Shown here in pieces: positions 8,629 through 16,108 of a stretch of 37,336 nt of DNA (position 1 is the first letter of the stretch; each line of letters opens with the position of its first letter). The translations under genes were made by a program, and so were the position numbers. Source of the stretch: Cochliopodium minus (taxonomy: Eukaryota; Discosea; Himatismenida; Cochliopodiidae); the NCBI GenBank assembly GCA_024220525.1, contig JAMYWO010000348.1:1-37336 (forward strand), written 5' to 3'. The notes under the pieces are model-generated. The model had not been told where the DNA came from, did no database searches, and saw nothing but the letters and a program-made list of their open reading frames with translations.

Positions 8629-11600
8629 TTATTTCATCTTCTTGCTGTGCTCGCTCAAAAAAATTCTGGAAGAAGGGATCCAGAAGGAATCAAGGTCGAA
8701 ATAAAATTTGAATGTGGAATAGTCATTGCGCAGCTTCAAGGAAGACAAGTAGGAGACCACAGAGTCGAGATAGTCGAACCAAGCCCCAGAAAATTTGGAA
8801 TAAATGCAGAATAAAGACCATTGCTCCTCTGTAAACAAAGATTGGATCTTAACAGAAAAAAAAAAAAATTTCATAAATAAAAAAAAAAATAAAATTTAAA
8901 ATAATATAAAAAAAATACCCAAGCAATAATAAGACTAGTTGCAAGCATCTTTTCAAAGAGAGGTATATGTTCAGAGTTTTTATGATAAAAAGAAGCGCCG
9001 AGCTTGCTCTTTAGATGGAGGGTACACTTGAGCTTCGAGAGCCCCACAGTGGATAACACGGCGTTGTCAAGCTCAAAGAGACACCCACCTGATTTCGGAA
9101 GAAGAGAAAGAGCTTTATGTACTGACTTATCATCTATTTCGTGATTTACTAGATCCGAATTTAAAAAAATAAATAAAATTAAAATTAAAAAATATAAATA
9201 AAAATAAAATTATAACACTTAAAATTAAAATTAAAAAAATACCTTTTTCTTTTTCTTTCTCATTAAAAAAAATTTTTTCTTGTTCTTCAAGACAATTCTC
9301 ATCTTGAAAATATCCATATTCACCTTTTTTTTCCAAAGATTAAAAAATCAGATGAAATGATTATAAAACTTTACCTTCTCCTTCTGTGTACTCGTATTCA
9401 TATTCGCCTTTAAAAAAGTGAAAAAGAAAATTAATAAAAAAATAATAAAAAAAAAAAATAAAAATAAAAAAAAATAAAAAAAATAAAAAATTTAATTTAA
9501 CCTTCTCCCTCTGTGTACTCCCCTTCATCCTCTCCATAGTAATTGAGATTTCCTCCATGAAATGAATAATCTCCATTATTGGTTGTTTTCGAAAAAACTG
9601 ATACGCTGGACTGAGCTGAGGAAATCTCTTCCAAAAATTTTCCTGATATAAAAAAAACATAAAAAATAATCAAACATTAAAAAAAATGAATTAAATAATG
9701 AGAAAATGTTGTGTTTGAATGAATATTCCCCAGATAAATATGCGAGATAGACAGTGTAGAATGAGAAAATGTTTTAACCAGTTTCAACGTCAATTCCTAC
9801 AATGTGAGACTTTGCATGACCATGTTTTCCTGTCTTAGAGTTACGAACATCCGACTAATGTTGACAACAAAAAAAAATTAAAAATAAAAAAAAGAAATTT
9901 AATTAAAATTACCACTTTACAGAGTCTTCCCTTTATCATCACCAAATTATTTTTCTTTAACTGTGAGTACGTGGTTTCCTCTGAATTTAGTTCACTTGTA
10001 GGCAGTGTATCCTTGCCTCCGAAAACACTTTGACCATTATGATCCTCATAAACTTTAAAAAATAATTTTAAAAAAATATAATAAAGAGAATTGTTTACCT
10101 TTTTCTTTATCTTTCTCAATCTGCTTCCACCCAGTTGATTTTCTGGCAGTCTGTTTTGTTCTTCCTATTCTTAGGGGTTCTACCAACTCAGGTGATTCTT
10201 TCTTTTCAATAAAAGAAAAATCAAAACTTGGATTTTCTCCTTTCGTGAAAAAACATATTTAAAATTAAAAAAAATTTAAATAATCTTGAAAAAAGAAAAA
10301 TCAAAAAAAAAAATACCAAGAAATTTTAAAGATGATTTAGATTCATTTTCTACTAAAACACTCTCAAAAATATTGCTTTCTTTCTCAAATTGCTTCCTAG
10401 GAGCTTTTCCACCAGTTGATTTTCTGGCAGTCTGTTTTGTTCTTCCTATTCTTAGGGGTTCTACCAACTCAGGTGATTCTTTCTTTTCAATAAAAGAAAA
10501 ATCAAAACTTGGATTTTCTCCTTTCGTGAAAAAACATATTTAAAATTAAAAAAAATTTAAATAATCTTGAAAAAAAAAAATAAAGTTATACCACTATAAT
10601 CAAAAAATGGTTCGTTGATATCGTTTTCAATTGAAGCTTTGTCTTCTTTTTCTTTTTGTTGTCGAGTTGAAGAGAGTGGAGCTGATCCCCCTGTTGAGAG
10701 ACCAGCCGTTTGTTTGGTTCTTCCTTTCCTGACTGTCCCAAAGACAGACAAATCTTCAATCTTCTCGCCACTCAAAAAATTGAAACTTGGTTTATCTATT
10801 TTTTATTGTCAAAAAATGAGATTAAAATAAAAAATAATAAAAAAATTTGCCATATTCTTTTTCTTCATCTTTCTCAAATTGCTTCCTTGGAGCTTTTCCT
10901 CCAGTTGATTTTCTGGCAGTCTGTTTGGTTCTTCCCCCCTTTCTTAGGGGTTCTATCAACTCAGTTGATTCTTTCTTCTCAAATAAATCAAAACTTTGTT
11001 CTTCCATTGTTCATGAAAAAATAATTTAAAACAAAAAAACTTAAAATAATCTTAAAAATTACCCAAAAATGATTCATCGACTTTAAGTTTTTTTTCATCC
11101 TCTCCACCTTCTAGCTGATTAAAAGGTGATTCCACTACCTTTCTTCCAAAACCTTCTTTAAATGATTGCTCATCACCTAATGTAGGTTTTTTCCTTCTTC
11201 CTTTTTCCCTAAAACAAAATTCTTTAAAAATTTAAATTAATAAATTTTAAAATTTTTGGACCTCTCTAACTTTTCTTGATTTCTTTTGATTTTTAAAAGC
11301 TCCAAATAACTTTTTTGATTCAAAGTGTCACCTCCTTTGGGCGAGCCAACAAGTTTCTGCCTTTCTCTCTCGTGCATTCTCGACTCTTCTTCTTCCCTCT
11401 TCATGGCGAAATCTGATTTCCTCTTCTCCTCGCAAAGCTCCGAAAAATTGATAAACTGATCATGACTCTTTTCTATTAAAGCATCAATGCAAAGTTGTTC
11501 GTCGTTAGTCACGTCCAAAGAAGATCCAACCCTTTCTATTTCCTGCAAAACTTCTTCGCTTGGTTGCTTACCGTGGAATTGGCTGATTTTAAACTTGTTT

Positions 11601-14600
11601 TTGTAAAGCATAAAGTTTATCAGAGAGGTGGCTCTATCTTTATCAAGTTTGCTCCAGATATCGATCAGTTGATTATCATCAATTATCAATTCATCCTTCC
11701 AATTCATATAAGATCTTTTAGAAGAGAAATAAAAATGAAAAAATAGTTTAAATTAAATAATTCATACAAAATATCAATGTCTGTTTGATCAATCAACTCA
11801 CTAATTTTCCTTATCTTAGATTGATCTATATGTTCGTTTTGTTTTCTCTCTTCGATGGCAATAAAAGAAGTGTAAGGAGTAACCAAGTTGTACTGTATTC
11901 CAAGCCTGATTGCTTCTTCCTTGAAATTCTTCTTTTTGAGCTGAGTTTCAATCTTGTCGAGATCTCCATACACAGAATCATCATTATCCTTCTCCCTTAT
12001 GATCGCCTTGGCGCACAAAGTATGGAGAATGTTTCCATTTCTAAACAGGAGCTCAGATGTGCTCACTCCATGTTCAATAACCTCCGAACCTATCTTTGAG
12101 TACAAAGTTGCTCTCGTACAATGATCGATAAATCCTGATAATGTTTTAGAAGTTAAATTTTTTTAAAAAATAAATTTTACCATAAACCATCTGCCTATTT
12201 CCACTAAATAATGAACTAAACTGTTCGGGAGATTGCTGTACTTTCAATTTTTCGTTTTCTATGTGCCAGATTACGTTAATATCAGTCAAGACGGGTTGTT
12301 GAGATTTCTCAATAAACTCCTTTAAATGAAACAAACAATTAATCAAAAGAAAAACAATCAAAATTCTTATATTTTTTACATTGACTTTTGAGATCACTTG
12401 GGTGTCATTTGGAGCGATGTAAGAATGCAGACCTCCACCTAAAACTGCCATTTTTTTAATCATGTATCTATTTATAGAACTTCCTACTCCCAAAGTGAAT
12501 AATCTTGTGTGAGAAACATTCTCTTTAATCAAATTGAACACGTATGATTCATTGGAGACTTGTCCATCACTCAATAGAATGACATTTCTCAAAACACTAT
12601 TTCCCTTGCATTCTCCAATCTTGTAAATGGGTTTTAAGGCTGTCCAAAGATCACTTTTAAAAATAAATAAATTTAAATCAATTAAAAATTGAAATCTTTT
12701 ACGATCCTCCATAATTTGCTTTGATAGAATCAACATGAGAAATAGCTTTTTGTTTGGAGATTTGATCATCAATAGATACGGATTCACGGAATAGCCAAGA
12801 AATCGTGGATCCAAATTCCACAATGTTAAAAACACAACCAAAGGGAAGATTGTTGATGAAATATTTCAAGATGAGCTTGAGATCGCCCAAACTCTGTCCT
12901 TTCATCGAAGAACTTCTGTCAACCAAAAAGATAATCTCTCCCCCTTCTTTCTCATACTGAAAATTAGGACAAAAAGATAACATTCCACAATGGCTGCCTT
13001 TCTCGTTAACTTCAACCCACATCCTAGGCTCATAAGGGTTTTCTATTTTAATTTGGAGAACAAAATCAACCTCTAGAGGCTCGTTTTGATCTTTGAGTTC
13101 AAGAAAAGCCACTGTCTCAGTCTTTTTGATTCTGATGTGATGAGAATGAGATTGGATCGTTTGTATTTTGTAAGGCATTTCAACAGAAACTTGCAATGAC
13201 AAGCCAGGCTTTTCTTTTATCTTGATTGTATCCATCTGATTCTGAGTAATCTCGTTTAGCGAGCTTTCACAAGAAGGAGGGTAAACAGTGGAAGGCAAAG
13301 TCCAGGAAATTTCCCCTCCCAAGAAGTTCAACTCAGTGACATAGGTTATCTTGATAAGAACCTCGGAACCAGCAGGGAGGTTTCCAACCGATACAGTAAA
13401 AATGTCCTTGTTGTCTTCGCTTTCATCCATCAAATAAGCACCATGACCTATAAGTAAGTCAAACATTAGAAAACGTTTAAATGAAAAAAATGCTTTACCT
13501 TTGGATATAGCATCTTTATATTCTTTCCTTGCTTCTTCTTTTTCTTTGACTTTTCCAATTATGTGCTTCCCATTGATAAAAGCTTCAAATCCACAAACAG
13601 AGCTCATTTCATCAAGAGGGAACACGTACTTGGCTTCTATAGGAACACTCTCTTCATTTTTGTAATGCTGAAAGATCACTATCTCTCCAATCATGTCCAA
13701 CAACTTTGATTTGACAAAAACAGATTTTAGAGGCAATGGTCTCCCACTTGTTGTCCTCAAACCACTCTCTACTTTTTTTGGTTCTTTCTTAACTTCTTGG
13801 ATTAGATTTAAATTGAGTCCTGACAATTGATCTATATCCTCTTCTCTGTTAGAAAAAATGTTGGGAGGTATTTCTAATTTTACTTGGTTATCCCCTTCTA
13901 AAGTGAACTCTATAAGATGCCCGATGTATTGTTGGTTTTGATTGTAAATGACAAACTCATCATCTTTGAAATCACTTCCTCTTACTCCCTGAACAGAATG
14001 GAAAGAAGGAGGAGCATCTTTAAAAAAAATTGTTAATAAAAAAATTAAAGACAACAAAAAAAAAACAAAATTAAAGACATATGTTGTAGTTACCTTCAAG
14101 ATGAGGTTGTTGTTTCCAAAATTGTTTCGTATTTCCCAAAGCAACATTACATGCGAACATGAATCTAGTTCCTCTATTTCCTGTGTTAGTATAAATTGCG
14201 CTGGTGGAAGCTTCAGGAGCAAAATAGATTCCTGCACCAAGGAACCCATAATCTGTTCTCTTTACCCCCAAGTTGACAACAGACTTTGGCAGAAGTATTC
14301 CTATTTAAATTAAATTTAAATTTTAAATAATTAAATTATTTGAAGGATCTACCTCTACTTAAGATTCCAACCATGTAACCAGTTTTGGATCCATGAAAAA
14401 GAATTTTTTGGTTGTTGATGTCTGATCTGAAAACATTTCTCTCAAGATGTCTATTCACAGAAAAAATCCTCTTTATTTTGATCGATTTATCTTTGACGAG
14501 ATCAGAAACAGACTGAAACTCATGAGAGTTTCTTGCCAAAGATTCCAAACTGCACCTCAAAGATCTGTACTTAAGTTCGACAGGTGACATCAAAGATCCC

Positions 14601-16108
14601 CTAGTGACTTCACCAACATTCAAGATGTCCTTCAACAGTTGTACAAGCTCTTGTTGTTCGTCATACTTTTGGGAGTCATCGATAACAAGTTTGTTGGTTT
14701 GAGGAATAGTATTGTAGTATTGGGAAGAAAGAGAAACAAGTTTGCTTTCCTTTTCTATCTCATCTCCCTTTATGGTTTGCCCTATCTCAAGTAAGATCAC
14801 TTGTCCTTTTTCCACTTGTGGAAGGGAAAGTGTCCCCAGGGGTGTTTTGATGATCCCTTCCGACACCAACTGCCCTTGGATCTTTTGAGAAAGAACGTGA
14901 TTGGCCTCGTAGAAGATATAATCGACGAGATCAGCGACATCTTGATCCAGATTGGATATTTTTTGATTGGTGTTGATCAATAGCTCTGATTTCAGCTTTT
15001 CAGATCCCATCTTCTTCAATGATAACTCCATCACTTGATATCTGCTTTGGATCTTTTGTTCATATAGAATGGAATACAATACCTCGCCTTCTTCAATGGT
15101 GGTTATTTCCCTGCATTGCTTGGATCCTTCATAATCCTTTTGCTCAAGCAAATCCACTGATCCTTCTTGTGTGAATACACGAAATTTAAAGGTTTTATTT
15201 CCATCTTGCATTGATTCTCCCACATGCAATTCAATTACATAAAAAGATTGATTATTCTGAAGAATATCGTTTCTTATAATTTCATATTTTTCTTCTGGAA
15301 ACTCGTTGGGAAAATCATTTGTTGGAGAATATTCCAGTATTGGTATATTTTCCAATGATAATTTTGGTTTCTTTATTACATATGGTTTTGGAACTGCCAA
15401 AATGATTATTATAACGAATAAATCAATATTAATCAAATTATCTTACCTGATATACATCCAAACATTATATTTTTCTTGATGATTTCATATTGTTCTTTCT
15501 CATCTCTCATGTTTGTATCTATCATCAAAATATACCCTCCAAAATTCAATATTTGCTTCATTTGTGAACAATCTTCTATATAATCAGATTTGAGAAGAGG
15601 GATTCTATATTGTTTAGCCAAATTGATATTTATAGATTCATAATCATTTGATTCTGTGATATAATGGGTTGTCTAAAAAGAAAATTTTTAAAATTATAAG
15701 ATTAAATTAATATTATTATACCCTTTTGGTGAGGACATGTGATAGTTTTCCTCCATTCCTCTTGATGCATTTTTTCAAATTTTTTTTTTTCTTTATATTT
15801 TTTAATTCCAAGAAAATCTTGAAGCCATTGAATAAGTTGGATTGATTATTTGGAGATGAAGATAGATTTTGCATATTTGAATTGAGGATCTTTGAAACAT
15901 CAACCTTGAAATTTTTTTCGCTTTCATATTTATCAACGGGCAACAATTTACTCATGAATTTGTTGATATCAATTTCTTTATCAATGGTTGTCTCCGATAT
16001 ATTTTCAAATTCTTGGATATTAATTCCTCCCTTATAATATTGATATAGTGAATTAATAGAATCCTCATTTAATCTATTTCTTTCATCAAAAATGAGAGGT
16101 TGTTTCAT
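8629..16108 (-). CDS. PARP4: PARP4-like ADP-ribosyltransferase (BRCT-WGR-PARP-VIT-vWA) with H3-tail repeats and an eIF5A domain, 22 exons, about 2040 aa
   Basis: Exons: 16108-15722, 15672-15447, 15393-14353, 14300-14094, 14017-13499, 13447-12703, 12653-12380, 12319-12181, 12134-11768, 11714-11262, 11208-11063, 11000-10851, 10795-10592, 10520-10317, 10239-10099, 10052-9913, 9854-9779, 9642-9502, 9407-9375, 9323-9243, 9148-8919, 8847-8629. They sum to 6123 nt without a stop. Domains: BRCT (about 100-180), WGR-like region (about 255-340), PARP regulatory helices, and catalytic domain with H538 (LFHGS), Y577 (GIYFAPEAS) and E641 (EFVIYNQ), the full H-Y-E triad. Then VIT (about 690-830) and vWA (about 930-1130; MIDAS DRSSS, LLSDGQ). 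This order is that of vault PARP (PARP4). Residues about 1500-1890 carry four H3-tail peptides, an eIF5A-like domain and an acidic tract. The last 120 residues match the usual C-terminal domain of VIT/vWA proteins. Exon 21 could also start at 9126 in the same frame. Confidence 0.88.
9300..9541 (-). other. Acidic Glu/Gly/Tyr tract resembling a tubulin C-terminal tail (PARP4-like gene, exons 18-20)
   Basis: Across three exons the protein reads YYGEDEGEYTEGEG, then EYEYEYTEGEGEYGYF. Exon 19 is only 33 nt (11 codons) and repeats the YTEGEGEY unit of exon 18. The E-G-E-G-E and EEY-like pattern resembles the poly-modified tails of alpha- and beta-tubulin. The resemblance is compositional, and this is a suggestion only. 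Confidence 0.4.
9593..9975 (-). other. eIF5A N-terminal (hypusination) domain embedded in the PARP4-like protein
   Basis: Exons 16-18 encode LKKNNLVMIKGRLCKV, SDVRNSKTGKHGHAKSHIV, and GIDVETGKFLEEI. This is the eIF5A SH3-like domain almost residue for residue, including the hypusine loop S-K-T-G-K-H-G-H-A-K. The lysine that would be hypusinated is at about residue 1791 (codon 9827-9825). The C-terminal OB-fold of eIF5A is absent and exon 16 has no start codon, so this is not a stand-alone eIF5A gene. Introns interrupt it right before the loop (9912-9855) and after GIDVET (9778-9643). Confidence 0.9.
9697..9773. mobile_element. Short inserted segment with 14-bp flanking direct repeats, inside PARP4-like intron 17
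   Basis: AATGAGAAAATGTT occurs at 9697-9710 and again at 9760-9773. Between them lies GTGTTTGAATGAATATTCCC, continuing to GACAGTGT (9711-9757). Nearly the same 47-51 nt occur at 37267-37317. The flanking repeats look like a target-site duplication. No poly(A) tail is evident. Confidence 0.6.
10121..10165 (-). other. H3-tail copy 4 (truncated), exon 15 of the PARP4-like gene
   Basis: It reads GRTKQTARKSTGWKQIEKD: H3 residues 2-12 are intact, then an in-frame deletion relative to copy 3 removes the K14-A-P-R stretch. The preceding spacer (ENPSFDFSFIEKKESPELV) is identical to that of copy 3. Confidence 0.9.
10131..10294 (-). repeat. 164-bp direct repeat, copy A (matches 10412-10575)
   Basis: Positions 10131-10294 and 10412-10575 appear identical over 164 bp, offset by 281 bp. 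Each contains most of an H3-tail exon, its acceptor site and part of the upstream intron, so an exon-plus-intron block was duplicated recently. Confidence 0.92.
10387..10446 (-). other. H3-tail copy 3 (intact), exon 14 of the PARP4-like gene
   Basis: It reads GRTKQTARKSTGGKAPRKQF. This equals histone H3 residues 1-20 except Ala1 to Gly and Leu20 to Phe, so K4, R8, K9, S10, T11, K14, R17 and K18 are all present. Confidence 0.95.
10412..10575 (-). repeat. 164-bp direct repeat, copy B (matches 10131-10294)
   Basis: This is the partner of the preceding repeat. Beyond the exact block, homology continues into the H3-tail coding part but with the 12-nt in-frame difference that truncates copy 4. Confidence 0.92.
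10665..10724 (-). other. H3-tail copy 2 (degenerate), exon 13 of the PARP4-like gene
   Basis: It reads GRTKQTAGLSTGGSAPLSST. R2-T3-K4-Q5-T6-A7 are kept, but R8-K9 became G-L, K14 became S and R17-K18 became L-S. Only the K4 half remains modifiable in the H3 manner; S10 and T11 remain. Confidence 0.9.
10796..10850 (-). other. GC-AG intron between H3-tail exons 12 and 13
   Basis: On the minus strand the donor is TATG|GCAAAT and the acceptor AAATAG. It is the third GC-AG intron of the window and keeps phase 1, joining EKDEEKEY to DKPSFNFLSG. Confidence 0.7.
10876..10935 (-). other. H3-tail copy 1 (intact), exon 12 of the PARP4-like gene
   Basis: It reads GRTKQTARKSTGGKAPRKQF, identical in protein to copy 3 but with several synonymous DNA differences. 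It is preceded by EQSFDLFEKKESTELIEPLR, a variant of the spacer before copies 3 and 4. Confidence 0.95.

Follow-up and report, generated by a model that had tools for sequence, protein, structure and literature searches.

A PARP4-type gene of Cochliopodium minus with histone H3 tails and an eIF5A N-terminal domain in the linker of its predicted protein

The window analysed here, a stretch of 37,336 nucleotides from Cochliopodium minus with 70.7% A+T, contains a gene of the PARP4 type (vault PARP), whose predicted protein holds histone H3 tails and the N-terminal domain of eIF5A in its linker. The gene (8629..16108, minus strand; locus C344) was modelled by hand with 22 exons, which are read in a single frame and encode 2040 residues. 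The H3-tail sequence in this predicted non-histone protein is beyond chance.

The first-pass annotation had described the gene as PARP4-like, and the domain searches agree with this. Exons 1-2 (15447..16108; all features of the gene are on the minus strand) encode a BRCT domain (aa 89-164; Pfam 5.2e-13), followed in exons 3-5 (13499..15393) by the PARP regulatory domain (PARP_reg, 2e-13), the ADP-ribosyltransferase (ART) domain (PARP, 9.8e-26), and the start of the VIT domain. The remainder of VIT (2.5e-34) and the vWA domain (VWA_3, 1.4e-20) are encoded by exons 6-7 (12380..13447), the post-vWA region and a charged linker by exons 8-11 (11063..12319), and four copies of the H3 N-terminus by exons 12-15 (11000-10099). 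The eIF5A N-terminal domain and then an acidic stretch occupy exons 16-18 (9502..10052; 10052-9913, 9854-9779, and 9642-9502), and exons 19-20 (9243..9407) encode acidic EGEY repeats and a charged stretch. Finally, exons 21-22 (8629..9148) encode a C-terminal domain, located where PARP4 has its MVP-interacting domain.

The order BRCT, PARP_reg, PARP, VIT, vWA is that of PARP4, and all of these domains exceed their Pfam cut-offs. The ART domain matched PARP4 best in the PDB search (8.4e-29, versus 7.1e-9 for PARP1), and the H, Y, and E of the catalytic triad are in place at positions aligned to PARP4. A WGR domain was reported by Pfam neither in the PARP4-like protein (E<=1) nor in a fish relative (E<=0.01). 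This fish protein, named poly(ADP-ribose) polymerase and having the BRCT-PARP-VIT-vWA layout, was the sole match at E<=1e-3 (31% identity over 60% of the query) among 8000 scored candidates, which were those of a 5.8-billion-protein set with most words in common with the full protein. The C-terminal domain is common to the paralogs C111 and C293, with 38% identity to each, and similarity to the fish PARP tail and to PDB chains was undetectable. The acidic EGEY exons 19-20 gave no PDB match. The EGEY/EYTEGEG repeats lie directly 3' of the eIF5A domain (9642-9243, exons 18-20) and resemble tubulin tails.

The four H3 copies were resolved individually. Copy A (GRTKQTARKSTGGKAPRKQF, 10876..10935) lies in exon 12 (11000-10851), copy B (GRTKQTAGLSTGGSAPLS, 10665..10724) in exon 13 (10795-10592), and copy C (GRTKQTARKSTGGKAPRKQF, 10387..10446) in exon 14 (10520-10317), whereas copy D (GRTKQTARKSTG, 10130..10165) in exon 15 (10239-10099) then becomes divergent and lacks the GGKAPR stretch. 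The two H3-like peptides noticed at first were found where they had been placed (10935-10876 and 10446-10387). Both are identical to canonical H3 from R2 to Q19 and match it at 18 of 20 residues overall, or 17 of 20 when compared with the organism's own H3 (ARTKQTARKSTGGKAPRKSV). The broader claim that each of the exons matches H3 held for copies A and C, exact over residues 2-19, but only in part for the others, since copy B matched at 12 of 17 positions (2-18) and copy D only at residues 2-12, diverging after G12. T3, T6, S10, and T11 were retained in all four copies, K14 and a lysine at 22 are present in copies A and C, and the GGKAPR stretch is intact in two of the four, residues 2-7 being the best preserved. 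In every copy G replaces A1 and the N-terminus is not free; readers that need a free H3 N-terminus are therefore excluded.

Chance was excluded as the origin of the array because only 6.8e-15 copies of the 17-residue string are expected in the genome, assuming uniform residues. The genome protein search with the H3 tail (E<=10) resulted in eight matches: four in this window, three true H3 genes, and one other gene. The DNA pattern for TKQTA was found 25 times versus 16 for the reversed control, which is too weak to inform, and eight of the 25 were places already given by the protein search. The RTKQTARKSTG pattern was not found in viral contigs. In prokaryote contigs it occurred at seven loci, all starting as ordinary H3 (three complete, two without the last part, and two short), and these are most likely eukaryotic contamination. 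No core-histone Pfam family matched the PARP4-like protein at E<=1, the histone-like family PAF scored 0.029, under its cut-off, and none of the five matches of a genome search with the H3 core fell within the window. The three H3 genes found in the genome all have S19 and V20, while copies A and C carry the canonical Q19. Another H3 gene was considered as donor; a Q19 donor was not found, only the three S19 genes and a divergent CenH3-like gene that lacks the ARTKQT tail. The presence of Q19 in the copies and of S19 in the organism's own H3 genes hints that the insertion is old and was kept intact.

An artefact, in which wrong exon joining or a chimeric assembly placed H3 pieces in a PARP gene, is extremely improbable in our assessment. 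The H3 tails had been proposed to be built into the PARP, and in the gene model exons 12-15 indeed share one frame with the PARP exons, have phase-1 boundaries, and lie between the PARP/VIT/vWA exons and the C-terminal domain. A chimera at the array, which the first-pass annotation had raised against its own proposal, is unlikely because of the frame, the matching phases, and the exon/intron composition (GC of 23-42% in exons and 5-24% in introns). In addition, the array is flanked on both sides by parts common to the paralogs, the four copies are separated by introns, with A to C mutually diverged, and a paralog has a 14-3-3 at the same place. On the other side, the model requires one GC-AG intron, after exon 12 (the other 20 of 21 donors are GT), and the protein-set search returned no transcript-derived product of the gene. 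Neither the PARP4-like protein nor a long linker-sharing protein was returned from the 5.8-billion-protein set (for the latter, 0 of 4752 candidates at E<=1e-3), and a second H3-bearing protein of this genome, the H3-PBZ protein described below (C247), was likewise not returned. The set seems to include a transcriptome of the same or a very close organism, and one of its proteins, P0003, reads identical by eye along long stretches of the C247 array.

Codon comparisons were used to describe how the copies have changed; the resulting counts, including those for eIF5A below, are low and in part a consequence of constraint on true H3 and eIF5A. The organism's own H3 (C65) and copy A differ over codons 2-18 by eight synonymous and no nonsynonymous changes, and copies A and C differ over codons 1-18 by three synonymous and no nonsynonymous changes. 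Within residues 2-18, copy B is changed only at R8, K9, K14, R17, and K18, that is, at five of the seven basic positions, while the ten non-basic ones are all unchanged (p 0.0034 for randomly placed changes, in a post hoc test). Each of these five codons has two or three base changes relative to copy A, whereas the remaining 12 codons have five synonymous and no protein changes. Copy D equals copy C over the first 109 exon bases and at 59 of the 60 preceding intron bases, and for this reason we take it to be a recent partial duplicate of copy C.

The module in exons 16-18 (aa 1763-1816) was identified as IF5A-like_N by Pfam (2.1e-19; 69.5 bits versus a cut-off of 27.1), and its PDB match was eIF5A at 1e-15. 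It aligns without gaps to the genome's eIF5A (C50) over 58 residues, with 16 identical codons, 18 synonymous changes, and 24 amino-acid changes. The hypusination loop SKTGKHGHAK is intact, its ten codons showing six synonymous and no amino-acid changes relative to C50. From 27 columns invariant across three eIF5As (C50, C137, and one PDB row), nine of nine were kept in the loop, compared with 10 of 18 in the rest of the domain (Fisher p 0.026). After aa 1816, Pfam gave no match to the eIF5A C-terminal OB domain. To our knowledge, hypusination is otherwise known from eIF5A alone, and the module might be a substrate for it outside eIF5A. According to PMC10042821, the eIF5A loop inserts into the DHS active site, and almost the entire N-terminal domain is required for effective deoxyhypusination; the eight invariant residues lost outside the loop count against the module as a hypusination substrate. 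A separate eIF5A paralog in the genome (C111:26914-27066) has its hypusination loop altered to SKTSKWGRAK.

H3 and eIF5A are abundant proteins, and pieces of such abundant genes may have been caught passively, as phase-1 exons with little function, in a permissive disordered linker. The recent duplication relating copies C and D, the truncation of D, the alteration of B, and the erosion of the eIF5A module outside the loop are all in line with passive capture. Nevertheless, we consider it distinctly unlikely, as H3 codons 2-18 (copy A versus own H3) and the hypusination loop show synonymous change only, the changes of copy B are confined to basic residues, and the canonical Q19 may point to an old insertion that has stayed intact.

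A genome search with the VIT-vWA part and a PARP family search together gave four further loci matched by both (C52, C111, C164, and C293). The linker of C111 (C111:119015-122090) contains an essentially complete 14-3-3 of 227 aa (PDB E 2.9e-73, residues 3-227 aligned), which is in frame with the preceding linker and the following C-terminal domain, its last stretch sharing an ORF with the latter. The genome search found one other place with a 14-3-3, at C201. The C293 linker had no Pfam or PDB match and no recognisable module, and at C164 the contig ends ahead of the linker. Of the three linkers that could be followed as far as the C-terminal domain (C344, C111, and C293), two hold recognisable modules. 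Major vault protein (MVP) is represented by four separate loci in the genome, at C525, C68, C270, and C15. Downstream of the PARP4 paralog at C52 (C52:118600-128500), a RADX/RPA-like sequence was detected (9.9e-10), with an N in the sequence there; C52 is possibly a nuclear, single-strand-binding PARP4 variant, provided that the RADX-like sequence belongs to the same gene.

The only other non-histone match of the genome H3-tail protein search was a gene at C247:54638-56719. Its protein carries MARTKQTARKSTGGTAPRKK at the true N-terminus, with T in place of K14, and ends in a PAR-binding PBZ finger (Pfam 2.4e-13). The body of the protein was unmatched in the Pfam copy used, and its relatives carry PF26128 according to a precomputed list. 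The fusion belongs to a tandemly arranged family whose proteins end in PBZ, and the two neighbouring paralogs with a visible start both lack the H3 start. The genome contains 23 matches to the PARP family and 28 to PBZ, 24 of the latter above the cut-off; both H3 fusions thus fall in ADP-ribose genes, a small class, although this is a post hoc observation on two cases. Given the eIF5A domain, the 14-3-3 of the paralog, and this second H3 fusion, none of which the first-pass annotation had noted, the question shifts from a single H3-bearing PARP to PARP4 linkers taking up modules.

The explanation that we favour, tentatively and with somewhat less than an even chance of being right, is that the linker modules are baits, which would keep partners of H3 and eIF5A, or clients of 14-3-3, close to the ADP-ribosyltransferase. 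In this view, the segment from vWA to the C-terminal domain would serve as a docking arm. Its modules would attract the usual binders and modifiers of H3 tails and eIF5A, and the 14-3-3 of the C111 paralog would attract phospho-clients. Captured partners would be placed beside the ADP-ribosyltransferase, probably in or at the vault, and then sequestered or modified. H3 copies differing in K9, K14, and K18 content may bind different sets of H3 partners, and S10-phosphorylated copies could bind the 14-3-3 of the paralog; as stated in PMC2880557, 14-3-3 binding to H3 requires H3 phosphorylation. We favour bait modules because the constrained-looking parts are the surfaces read by partners. The H3 array adjoins the eIF5A module and both lie between PARP4 parts, the 14-3-3 occupies the equivalent linker place in C111, four MVP loci are present, the second H3 fusion is on a PBZ protein, change in H3 codons 2-18 and in the eIF5A loop is synonymous only, and copy B has changed at basic positions alone within residues 2-18. 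Against the bait explanation, the truncated copy D and the altered copy B are also expected from decay, the eIF5A module has lost, beyond its loop, eight of 18 residues that are otherwise invariant, the C293 linker has no recognisable module, and the copies lack the free N-terminus and A1 of H3. According to PMC10711553 and PMC13174449, PARP4 is placed inside vaults via its C-terminal MVP-interacting domain; here a vault location is no more than probable, because the C-terminal domain has no detectable likeness to the vertebrate vault-binding domain.

A more elaborate version of the bait explanation, which we consider rather unlikely, would make the linker an interchangeable rack (the H3 array with the eIF5A hypusination domain, 14-3-3, and possibly others) that traps clients or pathogen enzymes beside the ADP-ribosyltransferase in vaults. 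The H3 copies would be graded in their lysines, and the H3- and 14-3-3-bearing paralogs could be linked via S10 phosphorylation. The function of vaults and PARP4 is still unsettled, and identifiable baits in a PARP4 linker would offer a direct handle, as the bound proteins would name the clients. The H3 array also provides built-in variants, namely copy B without R8, K9, K14, R17, and K18, and copy D without GGKAPR.

Plant NLRs contain integrated decoys, conserved hub domains that have been inserted into members of a receptor family and exchanged among its paralogs. Here, too, hub domains are fused and exchanged between paralogs; the chassis is a vault PARP and no effector is known. Vault PARPs may be immune sensors, with modules that imitate host hubs hit by effectors of intracellular bacteria or of viruses, and modification of the bait would trigger the ADP-ribosyltransferase. 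Among the alternatives, this defence function is the most daring, and we judge it unlikely. The linkers hold unrelated conserved hub proteins that differ between paralogs, and the vault NADase TEP1 is reported, in a 2026 preprint (PMC13174449), to have a domain in common with antiphage defence proteins, which makes a possible defence role topical. However, no pathogen or effector is known for the organism, a PARP4 decoy precedent is absent among the literature matches listed, and the binding surfaces are kept, as in plain adaptors.

HPF1 directs serine ADP-ribosylation, and the first-pass annotation had proposed that the PARP could automodify its own H3 tails, with S10 as a possible acceptor. 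The retention of T3, T6, S10, and T11 in the four copies and the presence of the catalytic residues are compatible with modification in cis. However, PMC10711553 describes PARP4 as without the structural features for HPF1 binding, which makes S10 ADP-ribosylation in cis less likely. Copy B also lacks K9 before S10, and the eIF5A domain and the 14-3-3 of the paralog are left unexplained, so that this proposal is now less supported and appears improbable. The genome search for HPF1 gave no matches, with control queries also silent.

Transport is a further, very improbable explanation, in which the H3 tails would direct import into the nucleus and the eIF5A domain would be the cargo signal recognised by the eIF5A export receptor. 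H3 1-28 is a Kap123 import signal, read at K14 and a second, further lysine, according to PMC5677370, and copies A and C, with K14 and the lysine at 22, could fit the Kap123 consensus; eIF5A is bound by the exportin Xpo4 (PMC10042821). However, the Kap123 structure shows no order for the first 11 residues of H3, whereas preservation here is highest at residues 2-7, and Xpo4 touches both eIF5A domains, only one of which is present. The GGKAPR stretch is found in only two of the four copies, and nuclear import is disfavoured as the cause of H3-copy conservation.

The arrangement had been considered novel, and this is consistent with the literature matches listed, whose titles and abstract openings, with subscription journals thinly covered, mention no PARP that carries H3 tails, eIF5A, or 14-3-3. 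The gene resembles PARP4 in its BRCT, PARP regulatory, ART, VIT, and vWA order and in the presence of MVP loci in the genome, but differs in the linker with the H3 array and eIF5A N-domain and in a C-terminal domain that is not detectably vertebrate-like. ATF7IP, a G9a/GLP substrate, and influenza NS1 are reportedly histone mimics, likewise non-histone proteins with a short peptide resembling H3, whereas the array here has an exact stretch of 18 residues and four tandem copies encoded by separate exons, and its carrier is an ADP-ribosyltransferase. BAZ2B has a histone-mimicking linker in a multidomain protein (PMC5663869); however, it is itself a histone reader and not an ADP-ribosyltransferase. 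The eIF5A module corresponds to eIF5A in its gapless N-terminal domain with the SKTGKHGHAK loop, but it is embedded in a PARP and no OB domain was found by Pfam. Upstream of the PARP4-type gene, on the same strand, lies an M3-family oligopeptidase gene (18940-16209), and the window also holds ankyrin, Ras-like, and adenosine deaminase ORFs.
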